DNA of 42,571 nucleotides from Clostridia bacterium (GTDB lineage Bacteria; Bacillota; Clostridia; Oscillospirales; RGIG8002): the NCBI GenBank assembly GCA_017438525.1, contig JAFRVI010000048.1, positions 1-42,571 of the forward strand. Reading direction: 5' to 3'. A model generated the notes under the pieces. That model was given only the letters and a program-made list of their open reading frames with translations. It ran no database searches and had not been told where the DNA came from. Within the stretch, counting starts at the first letter, position 1. Each line of letters opens with the position of its first letter. The translations under genes and the position numbers were made by a program. Of this stretch, positions 24,618 to 31,370 are shown in pieces.

Positions 24618-27068
24618 TTACGCGCGCTTTTTGCTCTTCTTATTCGTCAGCGCGAGGCCGCATCCGGAGATGAGCGCCGTGACGACGAAGACGAAGGTCA
24701 GAGTCATATCTCTGCCGATGTCGCCCGTCTTGGAATTTTTGTTCATTCCCTCGGGGTTGCCGTCGGCGTCGAGCTTCTGATACGCCTGCAGATCGGAGAT
24801 GTAGATCGAGGTGGAGCCGGAGATGTTGACCGACAGCGTAAAGGCGTCGGGCGCCGGAATCATCGGATGACTGCCGCTCATGATCGCCTGTTCGTTCTCG
24901 AGCTGCTCCTCAAAGGAGGCGGTGGGGACCTTCAGCTCGGAGTACTTCTCGGCGAGCTCCATGTCGGAGATCTGCCAGTAGTACCAGCCGGGGCCGTCGT
25001 AGGGCTTGGTGGAGTTCGTCGCCGCGCTCTCCCAGGTGTAGTTGACGTTGCTGAGCGCAAGCTGCAGATACTTGCCGCGGGCGTACTCCTCCTTTTCGAC
25101 GGCGACGTACATACGGATGCCGGAGATGTACTTATACTCGCTGCCGAAGGGGTTGTTGTAAACGGCGTTGCCGTTGTAGTTCGAGAAGGAGAAGTTGGTC
25201 TTGCCGCGGTTCAGCTTGAACTGAATTCCGAAGTCGGCCTCGGTGTCTATGAACGCCTTGTCTTCGGTGACGGACGCGACCGCGTTCTCAAGGGTGATAC
25301 CGGGGTTGCCGGTGATGTTGTCCCAACTCTTGAAGGAGTTGAGGTTGACGTATTTGATCTCGCCCTTCTCAAGTCCGTCCAGCGCCTTGCGGAGTTTCTC
25401 GCAGGCGGCGTTGACGTCCTCGACCTCGGCGGAGGAGGAGTTGAAGGTCGTCTGCGCGGAAAGCAGCGCGCGGTCGAGCGCCTTCATGGAGGCGGCGCTG
25501 AATTCGTATTCGTCGACGTTCTGCGCTTCGCCTATCAGAGCGGCGAGCTCCGAAAGACTGACCGCGTTGTCGTTGGTCTCCTTCTTATAATACTCGAAGT
25601 CGGAGATGTAGAAGGTCGCGCCAGCGGAGGGCATTACGACTTCAAACTGGAAGATGTAGCCGGGGTTCGGCATCTTCTCCTCGCCGGAGAGCTCGGAGAA
25701 CGGGACGTAGACGTAGCCGGGGCCATCGAAGGTGATGACGTAGGGATCGCCCTTGCCCGCGCCGTCGATGGTTATCTTCTGCTCGCAGGCGGTCGTTATG
25801 TCGGCGTTGCCGCCGAGGGTGATCTTGAAGCCGGTGGTCGTCTTGGTCGCGCTGTCGTATCTCTTAAACTTGGAGTAGTCGGGAGAGGATACGTAGAAAC
25901 GGATGCCGGTGTAGCCGGTATGCGCGATGCCGCCGAAGATGTCGGAGGGCATTCTCGTGAAGCTGGTGGTGTTGGGGCGGAAGTTCTGGAAGATGATCGA
26001 GCTGGTGTCGCTCTTGCCGACTACCTTGATGATCTGCTTTGAGCCCTCGGCGCCGAACTTGGCGATCTCGGCTTCGTCGGTGACAAGCGTCATCGTGCCG
26101 TTCTTGGCGTACGCTTTGGCGAGATCCTCGTCGGTCCAGTTCTCGATACCGGGCAGCTTCTTGCTGGAGATGGTCAGCGGAACGAGCTGGTCGATCGCTT
26201 CCTGGAGCTGAACGGCGAACTTTTCTTTCTGGGTCGCGCTGGTGGCGGCCTTCGCCTGATCGTAGACCTTCTTGAAGGCCTTCCATGAGCTCGAGGTGTA
26301 TTCGGCCCAGCGCTTCGTGGCGCCGTCCGCCATTACCTTGGAGTAGGAGACGCCGCCTTCTTTGCTGAAGCAGGCGAGGTCGGACATCGTAAGGAAGCCG
26401 GTGCCGACGGTCGTTCTGCCGACGTCTACGGAGATGAAGTTTATCTCCGTAAGCTGTTCGTCGGTGATGCCGACGGTGGAGTCGGCGGTGTTGACGAAGT
26501 ACTTATACGCCGCCTTCTCCTCCTCGCTCTCGGGGATGTCGAAGAAAACGTAGATGTTGTTGTTCGCTTCGCGGTCGGCGTACTTGAACTTGACGCTCGC
26601 GGTGAAGTCGTGGTCGGTTCCCTGCGCGCCGATGGTCAGCGTGATGTTCTGCGTGATGCTCTTGGAGTTGAGCTGCACGCGCATTCCGTCGAAGGCGGAG
26701 AGGTCCGCGCTGCCGTCCTCAAGCGTGAAGGGGTTGCCGGCGAGCTCGGTAACGTCGGCACCGAGCGACGCGTCCGCAAGCTGCGAAACGGCGGTGAAAA
26801 CGTTGCCGCTCGACGCCTTCTTCGGCGAGATGGTCAGAACGCCGGCTTCGCTGTTGGTGACGCTGCCGCCGTTGCCCATCGTCATACCGACTGGCGGAGT
26901 CGCCGTCTTCGCGATGGCTCCCCAGGCGGCAAAGCCCTTGAGCTTCGTGGAGACGAACGCCTCGTAGTACGGTTCGTCATCTTCCGCGGAAGCGCCTATC
27001 GGGAAGAGCCCGGTGAAAAGCGCTCCGACAAGGGAGATAACGAGTATGAACGTAAGGATCTTTTTCAT
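24618..27068 (-). CDS. Secreted, membrane-anchored repeat protein (paralogue 2)
   Basis: 816 residues. Signal peptide 1-28 (cleavage near ASA-ED). Three beta-rich units (about 35-237, 303-497, 572-766) share a core G-[IM]-R-[FMV] strand (DGMRVQL 127, TGIRFYV 387, SGIRMYV 649), a later aromatic strand (NIYVFFDI 171, GYVYVPFSEL 451, GWYYWQISDM 694) and an ending [IM]-S-D-[FL]-x-x-[FY] (228, 488, 758). Between them lie FIVAR-like helical modules (about 245-300 and 500-568, for example LSELAALIGEAQNVDEYEFS). The C-terminus has NSKTG where LPXTG would stand, a membrane helix and KKSKKRA, a sortase-type layout with a non-canonical motif. RBS AAGGAGG. The function is unknown; adhesion or glycan binding is inferred. 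It follows its paralogue by 30 bases. Confidence 0.85.
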   Translation of the reverse strand: MKKILTFILVISLVGALFTGLFPIGASAEDDEPYYEAFVSTKLKGFAAWGAIAKTATPPVGMTMGNGGSVTNSEAGVLTISPKKASSGNVFTAVSQLADASLGADVTELAGNPFTLEDGSADLSAFDGMRVQLNSKSITQNITLTIGAQGTDHDFTASVKFKYADREANNNIYVFFDIPESEEEKAAYKYFVNTADSTVGITDEQLTEINFISVDVGRTTVGTGFLTMSDLACFSKEGGVSYSKVMADGATKRWAEYTSSSWKAFKKVYDQAKAATSATQKEKFAVQLQEAIDQLVPLTISSKKLPGIENWTDEDLAKAYAKNGTMTLVTDEAEIAKFGAEGSKQIIKVVGKSDTSSIIFQNFRPNTTSFTRMPSDIFGGIAHTGYTGIRFYVSSPDYSKFKRYDSATKTTTGFKITLGGNADITTACEQKITIDGAGKGDPYVITFDGPGYVYVPFSELSGEEKMPNPGYIFQFEVVMPSAGATFYISDFEYYKKETNDNAVSLSELAALIGEAQNVDEYEFSAASMKALDRALLSAQTTFNSSSAEVEDVNAACEKLRKALDGLEKGEIKYVNLNSFKSWDNITGNPGITLENAVASVTEDKAFIDTEADFGIQFKLNRGKTNFSFSNYNGNAVYNNPFGSEYKYISGIRMYVAVEKEEYARGKYLQLALSNVNYTWESAATNSTKPYDGPGWYYWQISDMELAEKYSELKVPTASFEEQLENEQAIMSGSHPMIPAPDAFTLSVNISGSTSIYISDLQAYQKLDADGNPEGMNKNSKTGDIGRDMTLTFVFVVTALISGCGLALTNKKSKKRA

Positions 27069-27098
27069 AGGTCATTTCCTCCTTTTCCCGACACGCGC

Positions 27099-29564
27099 TC
27101 AGCGACCGCTGCGCTTAGCGCGGGAGGCCTTTTTGGTCATCATCAGCATGCAGGCGGCGAACGCGAGCAGACTGACGGCTATCGTCGGCAGCAGCGATAC
27201 GAGCTCCTCGGATCCGGGCAGGTCGCCGTCGAGCGGGTTACCCTCGTCGTCGAGGATCTTATACGCCGCTATGTCGGACAGGCAGTAGAACGCTTCCTGA
27301 ACGAGATAGCTTCCCTGGATATTGATCGCGAAGTAATCCAGGAACTCGTAGTCGAGCGAGTAGTTGTTGTTGGAAAGCTTGAAGCTGTTGAAGGGGAAGT
27401 AAACGTAGCCGCTCTCCTTCATATCGGACGTGTCGACGGTGCAGGTCGCGGTCAGTATCGGCATGAACGCGTTGCAGTTGCCGATCGTCATGGACATACG
27501 GGTCGGAGTGCCGCCCTTCGGCATATAGAGGTAAACGCGGATGCCGTCGTAGCCGGTGGCGTTCCTGCCGCCGAACGGCGTTGTTACGGCTTCGAGGCGC
27601 TTATACTCAGCGCTCTCGCCGGAGTTCGCGTTGGAGTAGCTGTAAAGCTGGATCGCGCCGGACTTGTATTCGATCAGCAGGCCGGCGTCGGTGACGTCGT
27701 TGCCGTTCTCGTCCTTGGCGAGATACGCCTGATCTCTCGTGATCGAGAAGTTGCCGCCGTTACTGACCATCTGCTTGAGCTGGTCGGCGGTCCAGGGCGC
27801 GAAGCCGGGGAAGCGGAGCAGCGCGTACTGCGGCTTCTTGAGGTTGGCGACCGCGAAGGAGAGCTTCTCGTATTCGGCGTCGATCTCCGCCTGGGTGACG
27901 TTCTGCTTGCCGGCGATCTTCAGCGCGGCGTTCTTTTCGTTGATGAGTTTCTCCCAGGACTGTCTGGACCAGAAGCTCTCTTCATATTCGTTTTCGATCT
28001 CTTCAATGAGGTTGACAAGCTTCGCCTTCTCGGCCTTCGTGTCAACGATGATGTACGCCTTGACGTCGGTTATCGCGACCTCGACGCCGTTGGTGATCTC
28101 GTTGAACTTCAGACCGAAGGTATCGAGCTTATCCATATATTCGGGGAGTTTATCCTGATTATCGAATGAGGAGAAAGGTACGAGATAGTAGCCGCTTTCC
28201 TTGACGTCGTCGATGCGGGCGGTGAAGATCTGGTTGGGTTCTTCGCCGTAGGTACCGATGATGACGTCAACGGACTTGGCGCGGCTCTCGGGGATGTTGC
28301 TGAAGTTCATGTAGAAGCGGAGGCCGGTGTAGCCACTCATATCCTTGCCGAAGAAATCGTCGTTGATCGGGATCGGCTGACCGTCTTCCATCTTCTCTTC
28401 ACGGTCGTAGTTCATGAACTCCATCCAGCCCTCGACCTCGGTGCAGACGAGTTTGAGGAGCTTCAGCGAAGCGTTCGGGCCCGCGGCGCGCTCCCACTGC
28501 TTCGTGCTGGAATTGTATTCGAGGGTATAAACGTCTTCGACGTCGTCGTAGTCGTAAACGAAATCCTTCTGGTTGTTGGTGACGAGCGAGGCGCGGCAGT
28601 AAAGCTGCTCGTACATCTCGTTTATGTCCTCGGTCTTGTACGCGCGGAAGCCCTTGATGTCAAACAGCTTCAGCTGCGGCTCGCCCAGCTTCGCGATGGC
28701 GGCGTCGAGGGCGGCCTTCTTGCTGTTGACGCTGGACTTCTTGCCGTTCAGCGTTTCCTTGATGTAAGCTTCGTAAGCGGCGGTGTACTCCTCGTAGGCG
28801 TCGGGGTCGTATTCGTCCGCGCCGTAGAGGGCGTTGACCGCGGCCATCGCCTCAAGATAGGACTCGGTGAAGTTGAAGAAACGGAAATCGCTGATGAGCA
28901 GCTGCATCCCCGCCTTCGTGCCGTGGACGGTGATATCCATGCGGGTGAAGGCGAGCGGATCGAAGCCGTCGTCAACGTTGAAGTCGGTGAACTTGAAGTA
29001 CATATAGTCGCCGCCGTCCGCTACCGAGCCGAGCGCTCCGGTCTTGGAAGCGTCTTTCATGACGGCCTTCTTGTCGCCGTCGGAAAGCGTCATCTCAAGC
29101 CAGCAGCCCGCCGCGTCCGCGCCGAGCATATTCGTGTTCACCCAGAGGCAGAGGCCCTCGAAGGTGCCGGTGCCGGGAGAAGCGATCGAGAACGATTTTG
29201 CGCTCTCGTCGTAGCGATTGGTAAACTCGGGCACGACAGCGTTGCCGTCCGCGTCGAAGTTCGAGAACGCCGCGTCTCCGTCTTCGTTAGCGGTGATCAG
29301 AAGACTCTTTGTGGGAGCGAATTTCGTCGTGCCGCTTGTGACGGAGGGCTTCCTTCCTATATCAAAGGAAAGAGTCGCGTTCGTCGCAGCGACGTTCGTC
29401 AAGTCGTCGGCGGACCAGCTCTCGAGCGCATACATCTGCACGTTCTCGATGCCGTAGTCCTGCGCGGCTGAAGCGAGCATGGGTATGACCGCCGTGAACA
29501 TGGTCATAATAAGCCCTGCAAGCACCGCGACCGCGACCGATTTTTTAATCGATCTCTTAATCAT
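27099..29564 (-). CDS. Secreted, membrane-anchored repeat protein (paralogue 1)
   Basis: 821 residues, the same architecture as the downstream gene. Signal peptide 1-34 (cleavage near ASA-AQ). Beta units lie at about 42-232, 298-508 and 580-771, with strands FEGLCLWV (135), TGLRFYM (413) and DGIRVYL (673), aromatic strands GDYMYFKFTDF (185), GYYLVPFSSF (458) and GYVYFPFNSF (719), and endings ISDFRFF, ITDVKAY and LSDIAAY. Helical FIVAR-like linkers lie at about 235-295 and 510-577. Units 2 and 3 open with hydrophobic F-x-x-[YW]-[KT]-x-[ED] (GFRAYKTED, GFAPWTAD). The C-terminus is DLPGSEE, a membrane helix (residues about 789-808) and a basic tail, so anchoring is likely by the helix. RBS GGAGG. 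It is first in the leftward pair and divergent from the SGNH-like lipoprotein. Confidence 0.85.
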   Translation of the reverse strand: MIKRSIKKSVAVAVLAGLIMTMFTAVIPMLASAAQDYGIENVQMYALESWSADDLTNVAATNATLSFDIGRKPSVTSGTTKFAPTKSLLITANEDGDAAFSNFDADGNAVVPEFTNRYDESAKSFSIASPGTGTFEGLCLWVNTNMLGADAAGCWLEMTLSDGDKKAVMKDASKTGALGSVADGGDYMYFKFTDFNVDDGFDPLAFTRMDITVHGTKAGMQLLISDFRFFNFTESYLEAMAAVNALYGADEYDPDAYEEYTAAYEAYIKETLNGKKSSVNSKKAALDAAIAKLGEPQLKLFDIKGFRAYKTEDINEMYEQLYCRASLVTNNQKDFVYDYDDVEDVYTLEYNSSTKQWERAAGPNASLKLLKLVCTEVEGWMEFMNYDREEKMEDGQPIPINDDFFGKDMSGYTGLRFYMNFSNIPESRAKSVDVIIGTYGEEPNQIFTARIDDVKESGYYLVPFSSFDNQDKLPEYMDKLDTFGLKFNEITNGVEVAITDVKAYIIVDTKAEKAKLVNLIEEIENEYEESFWSRQSWEKLINEKNAALKIAGKQNVTQAEIDAEYEKLSFAVANLKKPQYALLRFPGFAPWTADQLKQMVSNGGNFSITRDQAYLAKDENGNDVTDAGLLIEYKSGAIQLYSYSNANSGESAEYKRLEAVTTPFGGRNATGYDGIRVYLYMPKGGTPTRMSMTIGNCNAFMPILTATCTVDTSDMKESGYVYFPFNSFKLSNNNYSLDYEFLDYFAINIQGSYLVQEAFYCLSDIAAYKILDDEGNPLDGDLPGSEELVSLLPTIAVSLLAFAACMLMMTKKASRAKRSGR

Positions 29565-29797: not shown

Positions 29798-29826
29798 TTG
29801 ACTTTGCGCCGCCGCGGCGTTATAAT
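29798..29826 (+). promoter_or_regulatory. Promoter of the SGNH-like lipoprotein
   Basis: TTGACT (29798-29803), 17 bases containing GCCGCCGCGGCG, TATAAT (29821-29826), 42 bases before the GTG start. Confidence 0.85.
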
Positions 29827-29867
29827 TCAGATGGAAAGTCCCTGAAACAACGCAGGAGGTGAACGTC

Positions 29868-31307
29868 GTGAAACGATCCCTTTCAATAATAATTCTTGCG
29901 GCGCTGCTCCTGTCTCTGACTCAGCTCTGCGGCTGCAGCTGGCTCGAAGGAATATTCTATCCGGAATCCGAACGGCTCGACTTCGGTTCCAACGAGAAGG
30001 AGGAAACGCCGGATACGAAATACGAGCCGCTTTATGATAACGACGGCAACAAGATCAGCGACGCGCCGCTGACGAATATCGAGCTGCGCGCGCGCTCATT
30101 CAGCGCGGCAACGCAGCTGACTCCCGAGCGCATTGAGGGCGGAACGCTCTACGCCGGCAACCTCATACGCCTTGCCCGCGTGCTCAAGCGCTGCGAGGCG
30201 GCCTTTATTAAAGAAGAGACGCCTCCCTACTTCTCGAGCGAAGACAGCGCGCCGAAGCAGACGCCGCCCGACCCGACGGTCGACCGTTCACCCGTTACGG
30301 TCGGCTTCTGCGGCAGCGGCGCGATGGCGGGCGCGGGCGTCGAATACATGAAGGACGCCTATCCCTTCGCGATACGGCGCTGGTTCGCCGACACCTACGG
30401 CAGCGATAATTTCAACTTCCTCTTCAAAGCCGTTTCGGAAAGTGATTCGCGCTACGGTGCGCACGACGTCGGCAGAAACCTCATAAACGAGGGTGCGGAC
30501 ATCGTCTTTATCGACTACTCGGTCGCGGATATGAAAAACCCCGAAGCGAAGGAGACCTTCGAGGTCATCGTCCGGCGTCTGCTGACTGCCGAAAAACCCA
30601 TCGCCGTTGTAATACTCTGCACGATGGACGCCTCAGGCAAATCCGACTACGCGAACGAGCTCGAAATTGCCCGCGCGTACGGCTGTCCGGTCATCAGTCT
30701 GCGCCACGCGGTCGCGCAGGAACTCGCGGCGGGCAAGTTCTTCTTCTCATCGCTGACCGACGACGGCTTCAATCTCGGGCTTAACGGCCACGCCTTCTTC
30801 GGCGAGCTGGTCGCGAACTTCCTCGAAAACGTCCGCCGGCAGCTCGGCGAAATAAACACGGACGCGGATATCCCCGTCCCCGCCGTCGGACTCACCCCCT
30901 GCCGCTATATGAACGGCTGGCTCTTCACGAACTACAAGCGCCCGGTAAGCTTCGGCAGCTTCGTCCGCTACGGCCTGCGCTACGATATCTTCGACCGCGC
31001 CGGCTGGGAGTGCGCTGCGCCCGGCGGCGCTCCGCTGGTCTATCAGGTGGACGCGCAGTATATCACGCTGATGTACTGGAAGGTCGTCAACCGCACGGGC
31101 GGACGCCTCGAGGTCTACGTCGACGGCGCGCACGCCGCGACGCTCGAATGCGACTTCATCGACGGCGGCGAGGACTGCGCCGGCTACGCCACCGTCTACG
31201 CCGGCAGCGAATACGCGACGCACACCGTCGAGATCTATATGTCCGCGGAGAAGAACAAGGGCTCCACCGGCGAGCGCGTCTGCCTGCTCGCGATAATGAC
31301 GGCGTAA
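29868..31307 (+). CDS. Lipoprotein with SGNH-hydrolase fold lacking catalytic residues
   Basis: 479 residues from GTG at 29868, chosen because AGGAGGT ends 7 bases before it (a GTG at 29859 lies inside the RBS). Signal peptide with lipobox LCGC (Cys at 23). A charged linker leads to an SGNH/GDSL-like domain (about 143-325): VTVGFCGSGAMAGAG, ESDSRYGAHDVGRNLI, ADIVFIDYSVAD, RRLLTAEKPIAVVIL, DDGFNLGLNGHAFFGELVANFL. Against the usual GGSIT, AGIGG, VND and DxHPN blocks, the nucleophile Ser is Gly, the block-II Gly-Gly is Ser-Glu, Asn is Ala and His is Asn. A beta-sandwich-like C-terminal domain (about 355-479) follows. It is probably a non-catalytic binding protein. It is divergent from the two surface repeat proteins. 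Confidence 0.82.
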   Translation: MKRSLSIIILAALLLSLTQLCGCSWLEGIFYPESERLDFGSNEKEETPDTKYEPLYDNDGNKISDAPLTNIELRARSFSAATQLTPERIEGGTLYAGNLIRLARVLKRCEAAFIKEETPPYFSSEDSAPKQTPPDPTVDRSPVTVGFCGSGAMAGAGVEYMKDAYPFAIRRWFADTYGSDNFNFLFKAVSESDSRYGAHDVGRNLINEGADIVFIDYSVADMKNPEAKETFEVIVRRLLTAEKPIAVVILCTMDASGKSDYANELEIARAYGCPVISLRHAVAQELAAGKFFFSSLTDDGFNLGLNGHAFFGELVANFLENVRRQLGEINTDADIPVPAVGLTPCRYMNGWLFTNYKRPVSFGSFVRYGLRYDIFDRAGWECAAPGGAPLVYQVDAQYITLMYWKVVNRTGGRLEVYVDGAHAATLECDFIDGGEDCAGYATVYAGSEYATHTVEIYMSAEKNKGSTGERVCLLAIMTA

Positions 31308-31342: not shown

Positions 31343-31370
31343 AAAACGCCTCCCTCGCGGGAGGCGTTTT
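31343..31370. terminator. Bidirectional terminator
   Basis: AAAACGCCTCCC-TCGC-GGGAGGCGTTTT between convergent genes; an A-run and a T-run flank the stem, so it can serve both the SGNH-like gene and the leftward isomerase gene. Confidence 0.92.

Follow-up and report, generated by a model that had tools for sequence, protein, structure and literature searches.

A putative CE17-derived pseudoenzyme lipoprotein in a rumen genus of the Clostridia

Organisation of the locus

The window, that is, the whole stretch of 42,571 nucleotides that was analysed (Clostridia bacterium, Oscillospirales, RGIG8002; contig JAFRVI010000048.1), encodes a CE17-like lipoprotein next to two secreted proteins, designated SP_A and SP_B. 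We have identified the following features in this region:

24618–27068, minus strand: SP_A, predicted secreted protein with the same type of module as SP_B, a FIVAR-like spacer and a membrane anchor
27099–29564, minus strand: SP_B, divergent neighbour, predicted secreted protein with CBM-like beta modules and a C-terminal membrane anchor
29798–29826, plus strand: near-consensus sigma-70-type promoter, TTGACT-17-TATAAT, common to the four species compared
29854–29862, plus strand: ribosome-binding site AGGAGGTGA, 5' of the GTG start at 29868
29868–31307, plus strand: gene of the putative CE17-like pseudoenzyme lipoprotein, 479 amino acids; open reading frame, start and frame as in the initial annotation
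29868–29936, plus strand: signal peptide with lipobox and lipidated Cys23, as read from the sequence
29937–30119, plus strand: acidic N-terminal spacer, residues 24–84, of low model confidence
30120–30848, plus strand: SGNH-fold pseudo-hydrolase domain, residues 85–327, according to the structure model
30885–31304, plus strand: CBM35-like C-terminal beta domain, residues 340–479, according to the structure model
31343–31370, no strand assigned: terminator-like hairpin 3' of the stop codon, between convergent genes

The pseudoenzyme gene is monocistronic, divergent from SP_B and SP_A, and lies outside any obvious utilisation locus. Its promoter, ribosome-binding site and GTG start recur in the other three species of the genus that were compared (four genomes in all), and the divergent pairing with SP_B is found in all four. 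The lipobox reads LCGC in the window protein and LSGC in the three orthologues; signal peptide, lipobox and cysteine, the marks of a bacterial lipoprotein, are thus all present, in line with the initial annotation of the product as a lipoprotein. The spacer that follows (residues 24–84) is the fastest-evolving part of the protein.

Family affiliation and fold

The nearest solved relative, and the only match among PDB sequences, is RiCE17/CEX (6HFZ/6HH9; phmmer E 2e-23, query 143–460). RiCE17 is the CE17 mannan 2-O-acetylesterase of Roseburia intestinalis and consists of two domains, SGNH and CBM35 (PDB 6HFZ, 6HH9). Sequence similarity to this enzyme links the window protein to CE17. The Pfam model Lipase_GDSL_2 gave 21.9 bits, below its cut-off of 32.9; intact paralogues score 57.5–64.2, and an NCBIfam profile search of the window protein returned no match.

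An AlphaFold2 model built with 45 relatives reached pLDDT 82 and pTM 0.81. Superposed on 6HFZ, it matched with Z 40.9 over 360 residues covering both domains (model residues 85–479), and Foldseek gave an E value of about 1e-28, also across both; the best structural match to any protein other than RiCE17 had Z 18.3. The model thus shows the CE17 domain order, SGNH followed by a CBM35-like domain, with intact relatives present in the alignment from which it was built. The SGNH fold had been proposed in the initial annotation; the affiliation with CE17 and the C-terminal CBM35-like domain are additions to it.

The protein also differs from RiCE17 by its lipoprotein anchor, a spacer insert and clade-specific cysteines. 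The insert comprises about 28 residues (approximately 114–141; 30207–30290), is rich in Pro, Ser and acidic residues, stands ahead of the first core strand and has no counterpart in the intact homologues aligned alongside. All four pseudoenzymes share eight cysteines (C109, C148, C251, C273, C345, C428, C437 and C472) that are nearly absent from the 41 intact homologues; they possibly form disulfides or have another role. The CBM35-like domain opens with a clade-specific aromatic-rich hairpin, GWLFTNYKRP, with W351, F353 and Y356 (about 30918–30935); position 351 is mostly Lys or Arg in intact enzymes, whereas it is Trp in the pseudoenzyme clade. This hairpin possibly represents a replacement binding surface.

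Replacement of catalytic and clamp residues

The catalytic triad of RiCE17 is Ser41-His193-Asp190, the oxyanion residue is Asn110, and Trp326 of the CBM35 domain forms a substrate clamp (PMC13276840). The corresponding codons of the window gene are:

30318–30320, plus strand: G151, at the position of the nucleophile Ser41
30525–30527, plus strand: A220, at the position of the oxyanion Asn110
30762–30764, plus strand: D299, the retained catalytic Asp (Asp190)
30771–30773, plus strand: N302, at the position of the catalytic His193
31167–31169, plus strand: G434, at the position of the clamp Trp326

Pairwise alignment with RiCE17 placed Ser41, Asn110, Asp190 and His193 opposite G151, A220, D299 and N302. 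Independently of this, we inspected a 45-row alignment of the window protein, its orthologues L009, L010 and L011, and 41 other homologues, which include six paralogues from the same genome. Ser, Asn and His are present in 41/41 of these others, and Asp is likewise kept without exception. The four pseudoenzymes read G/G/G/K at Ser, A/A/A/A at the oxyanion Asn, D/D/D/D at Asp and N/N/G/N at His. Only the Asp of the triad has therefore been retained in this clade. T192, R200 and P303, each found in all 41 other homologues, are replaced in the pseudoenzyme as well. Lacking nucleophile (Ser), base (His) and oxyanion residue (Asn) alike, the window protein would be unable to hydrolyse esters by the CE17 mechanism, as is shown at the level of sequence.

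The motifs FCGSGAM, AVSES, YSVAD and DGFNLGLNGH are present as the initial annotation described them, and the Ser, Asn and His positions that it listed do align with the catalytic ones. It had further claimed that all four hallmark residues were replaced, from which it proposed a pseudo-hydrolase. This proposal is borne out by the losses of Ser, Asn and His, which are robust, but the fourth change, that of the block-II Gly, does not carry the same weight. The block-II pair of the window protein is S190/E191, Gly191 occurs in two orthologues, and among the intact homologues residue 191 is A in 24, G in 16 and T in 1, while residue 190 is Ser in 9/41; because the position varies among intact enzymes, the change is not diagnostic.

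The clamp Trp, on which the initial annotation was silent, as it was on T192, R200, P303 and the retained D299, has given way to Gly or Ala in each of the four pseudoenzymes and is kept in 32 of the 41 other homologues. Since it has been lost, an unaltered ancestral mode of mannan binding is unlikely, and this mode has probably been altered.

Orthologues, selection and evolutionary history

The pseudoenzyme gene is intact in four separate genomes, at 83–86% identity and in the same gene order, and all four species belong to one rumen genus. A search of 84,980 species genomes, with strict patterns by which distant members would be missed, yielded only two orthologues, one in a goat and one in a buffalo rumen MAG. 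Neither orthologues outside the genus nor intermediate sequences were found in about 390 genomes each at the order and class levels.

The NG86 dN/dS ratio of the window gene against each orthologue is 0.16–0.17, and over all orthologue pairs 0.16–0.23; intact CE17 paralogues show 0.06–0.30. Apart from the replaced residues the head is tightly conserved. In the tree the pseudoenzymes form one clade with a stem of 2.0 changes per site and tips of 0.02–0.08, as would be expected if the role changed once and the protein was then held. Losses common to all orthologues, the preserved frame, promoter, ribosome-binding site and synteny, and a dN/dS like that of intact paralogues argue for a maintained pseudoenzyme under purifying selection, not a decaying gene. 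The initial annotation had likewise argued against decay, and the three checks that it proposed, superposition on SGNH structures, homologue alignment and dN/dS, all agreed with its reading of an SGNH-fold pseudo-hydrolase that is not decaying.

Synonymous divergence within 24–31.3 kb amounts to 0.37–0.52, close to that of paralogues elsewhere in the genome (0.27–0.51). The idea of a fast-diverging block at this place was consequently tempered; the unusual feature is the high similarity of the right flank. Between about 24600 and 32200 the informative sites of SP_A, SP_B and the pseudoenzyme gene are divided over all three groupings of the species that are possible. The other genes tested clearly group this genome with G002, with the exception of the adjacent isomerase (13:20:3). 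The mixed tree signal in this block of surface proteins suggests recombination.

Neighbouring proteins and genome setting

SP_A and SP_B (24618–29564, minus strand) consist of repeated modules and helical FIVAR-like spacers and are almost devoid of Pfam hits. The last module of SP_B was modelled as a beta sandwich (pLDDT 73), whose best matches are mostly CBMs (CBM11, Z 10.8; CBM27, Z 9.6); the top-ranking match is a virus turret protein (Z 11.2). Related modules occur elsewhere in the genome, beside a GH16-like domain (a GH16 reading made by eye) and in a dockerin protein.

Most of the remaining CE17 genes in this genome carry dockerins and are arranged in tandem. Three intact CE17 genes form an array at G000:C82:2900-6950 and two at G000:C15:6000-8450, all with dockerin-like N-termini; in genomes G002 and G003 the contig with the C15-type array also carries a cohesin gene. 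The dockerin-bearing paralogues L002, L003, L004, L006 and L007 and the short L005, which has neither dockerin nor signal peptide, share the fold family with the window protein at 23–29% identity. Unlike it, they keep the GGS, ND and DxxHP motifs, and none of them has its lipobox and spacer. Cohesin and dockerin genes are thus both present in the genus; a search of three genomes for a GH26 mannanase was negative. Altogether, the genome context is that of a fibre degrader.

A second CE17-like module without catalytic residues was identified in a protein of about 980 amino acids (G000:C87:19068-22046; L071 4069-7047; orthologues L105, L106 and L107). Its CE2 esterase half is intact (E 6e-21 to CtCE2), and the C-terminal half is CE17-like (hhalign probability 98.6). 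In all four species the latter has Ser replaced by Asp, block II deleted, Asn replaced by Ser and no His in the block-V loop. It resembles the window protein in being CE17-derived, in the loss of catalytic residues and in its conservation in the same four species, but differs by the fusion to an intact CE2 domain, the block-II deletion and the nature of the replacements. The gene of a membrane-anchored cohesin protein lies 1.4 kb downstream. In a tree that includes this module, both dead lineages stand on very long stems.

Proposed role of the pseudoenzyme

We consider it reasonably probable that the window protein is a CE17-derived surface pseudoenzyme whose head binds polysaccharide, likely plant fibre, in the vicinity of CBM-like and dockerin-bearing proteins. 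Expression would be driven by the gene's own promoter, and the lipidated Cys23 with its disordered spacer would anchor the two-domain head at the cell surface. The head would then most likely bind polysaccharide, probably plant fibre, through a remodelled SGNH/CBM35 cleft, though hardly in exactly the way in which RiCE17 binds mannan. The substrate may in this manner be held near the cell, alongside SP_A, SP_B and the active, dockerin-bearing CE17 enzymes.

We infer the glycan-binding role from the fold and the neighbours. It fits the CBM-like modules of SP_A and SP_B and the second dead CE17-like module on an intact CE2. As to the ligand, the initial annotation had thought of acylated or glycosylated wall polymers, for which we found no specific support; the dockerin paralogues, the rumen habitat of two orthologues and the CBM-like neighbours point instead to plant polysaccharide. 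Counted against polysaccharide binding are the lost clamp Trp, the monocistronic gene and the negative search for a GH26 mannanase in three of the genomes. SP_A and SP_B could also be functionally unrelated to the pseudoenzyme, and the conservation of the latter is drawn from four genomes, too close to one another to resolve conservation of a ligand site.

Roles of the SGNH fold other than hydrolysis extend to Oskar, which is eukaryotic. Its SGNH-fold domain OSK is listed as RNA-binding (PMC9487903). It differs from the window protein in family and ligand. A precedent for polysaccharide binding is CtCE2 (Clostridium thermocellum Cel5C-CE2), an SGNH carbohydrate esterase domain that binds cellulose non-catalytically; it keeps the catalytic Ser-His dyad and esterase activity, however (PMC2661963). 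CtCE2 belongs to a different CE family.

The main rival, in our view unlikely, is a protein-binding scaffold: the pseudoenzyme would act by protein–protein contact, as a scaffold or regulator docking SP_A/SP_B or the active CE17/dockerin machinery, without binding glycan. Such a role would accord with the loss of the clamp Trp as well as the catalytic residues from an otherwise tightly conserved head, with the divergent pairing with SP_B in all four species, with the unusual mixed ancestry signal that SP_A, SP_B and the pseudoenzyme gene have in common, and with the existence of cohesin and dockerin genes in the genus. The pseudoenzyme itself, however, has neither cohesin nor dockerin, and its fold and neighbours are carbohydrate-linked.

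Much less probable is a migrated active site, in which Ser150, adjoining the lost Ser, would act with Asp299 and another His, for example His308, in hydrolysing or transferring an acyl group. All three residues are invariant in the four orthologues, but intact enzymes carry G or D at position 150 and, at the site of His308, six residues past the lost His, an ordinary non-catalytic His or Tyr (36 His and 5 Tyr of 41); the oxyanion Asn, T192 and R200 are gone too. It is the lack of any His in the block-V loop and the Lys tolerated at position 151 in one orthologue that make such catalysis unlikely. A decaying CE17 copy or an assembly error, to which the lost catalytic residues and the MAG origin of the genomes might have pointed, is scarcely credible given intact frames in four separate genomes, conserved promoter, ribosome-binding site and synteny, and the low dN/dS, and was rejected.

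Returning to polysaccharide binding, a wider and more tentative reading is possible: the CE17 scaffold may have become, on perhaps two occasions, a non-catalytic head for glycan capture at the cell surface. Such a 'pseudo-esterase lectin' would be of a new kind, directed at a feature of plant polysaccharides that catalysis would destroy, such as acetyl decoration. One form would be the lipoprotein, the other the module on the intact CE2 encoded near the cohesin gene.

Significance

Pseudoenzymes as such are well known; our search of openly licensed papers turned up none described for CE17. Should the protein bind acetylated polysaccharide and leave it uncut, it would be an example of a fibre-degrading bacterium making a receptor from an esterase, and could also be used to probe for acetylated hemicellulose. 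Metagenome surveys that count CE17-like hits as esterases may be including proteins incapable of esterase action.
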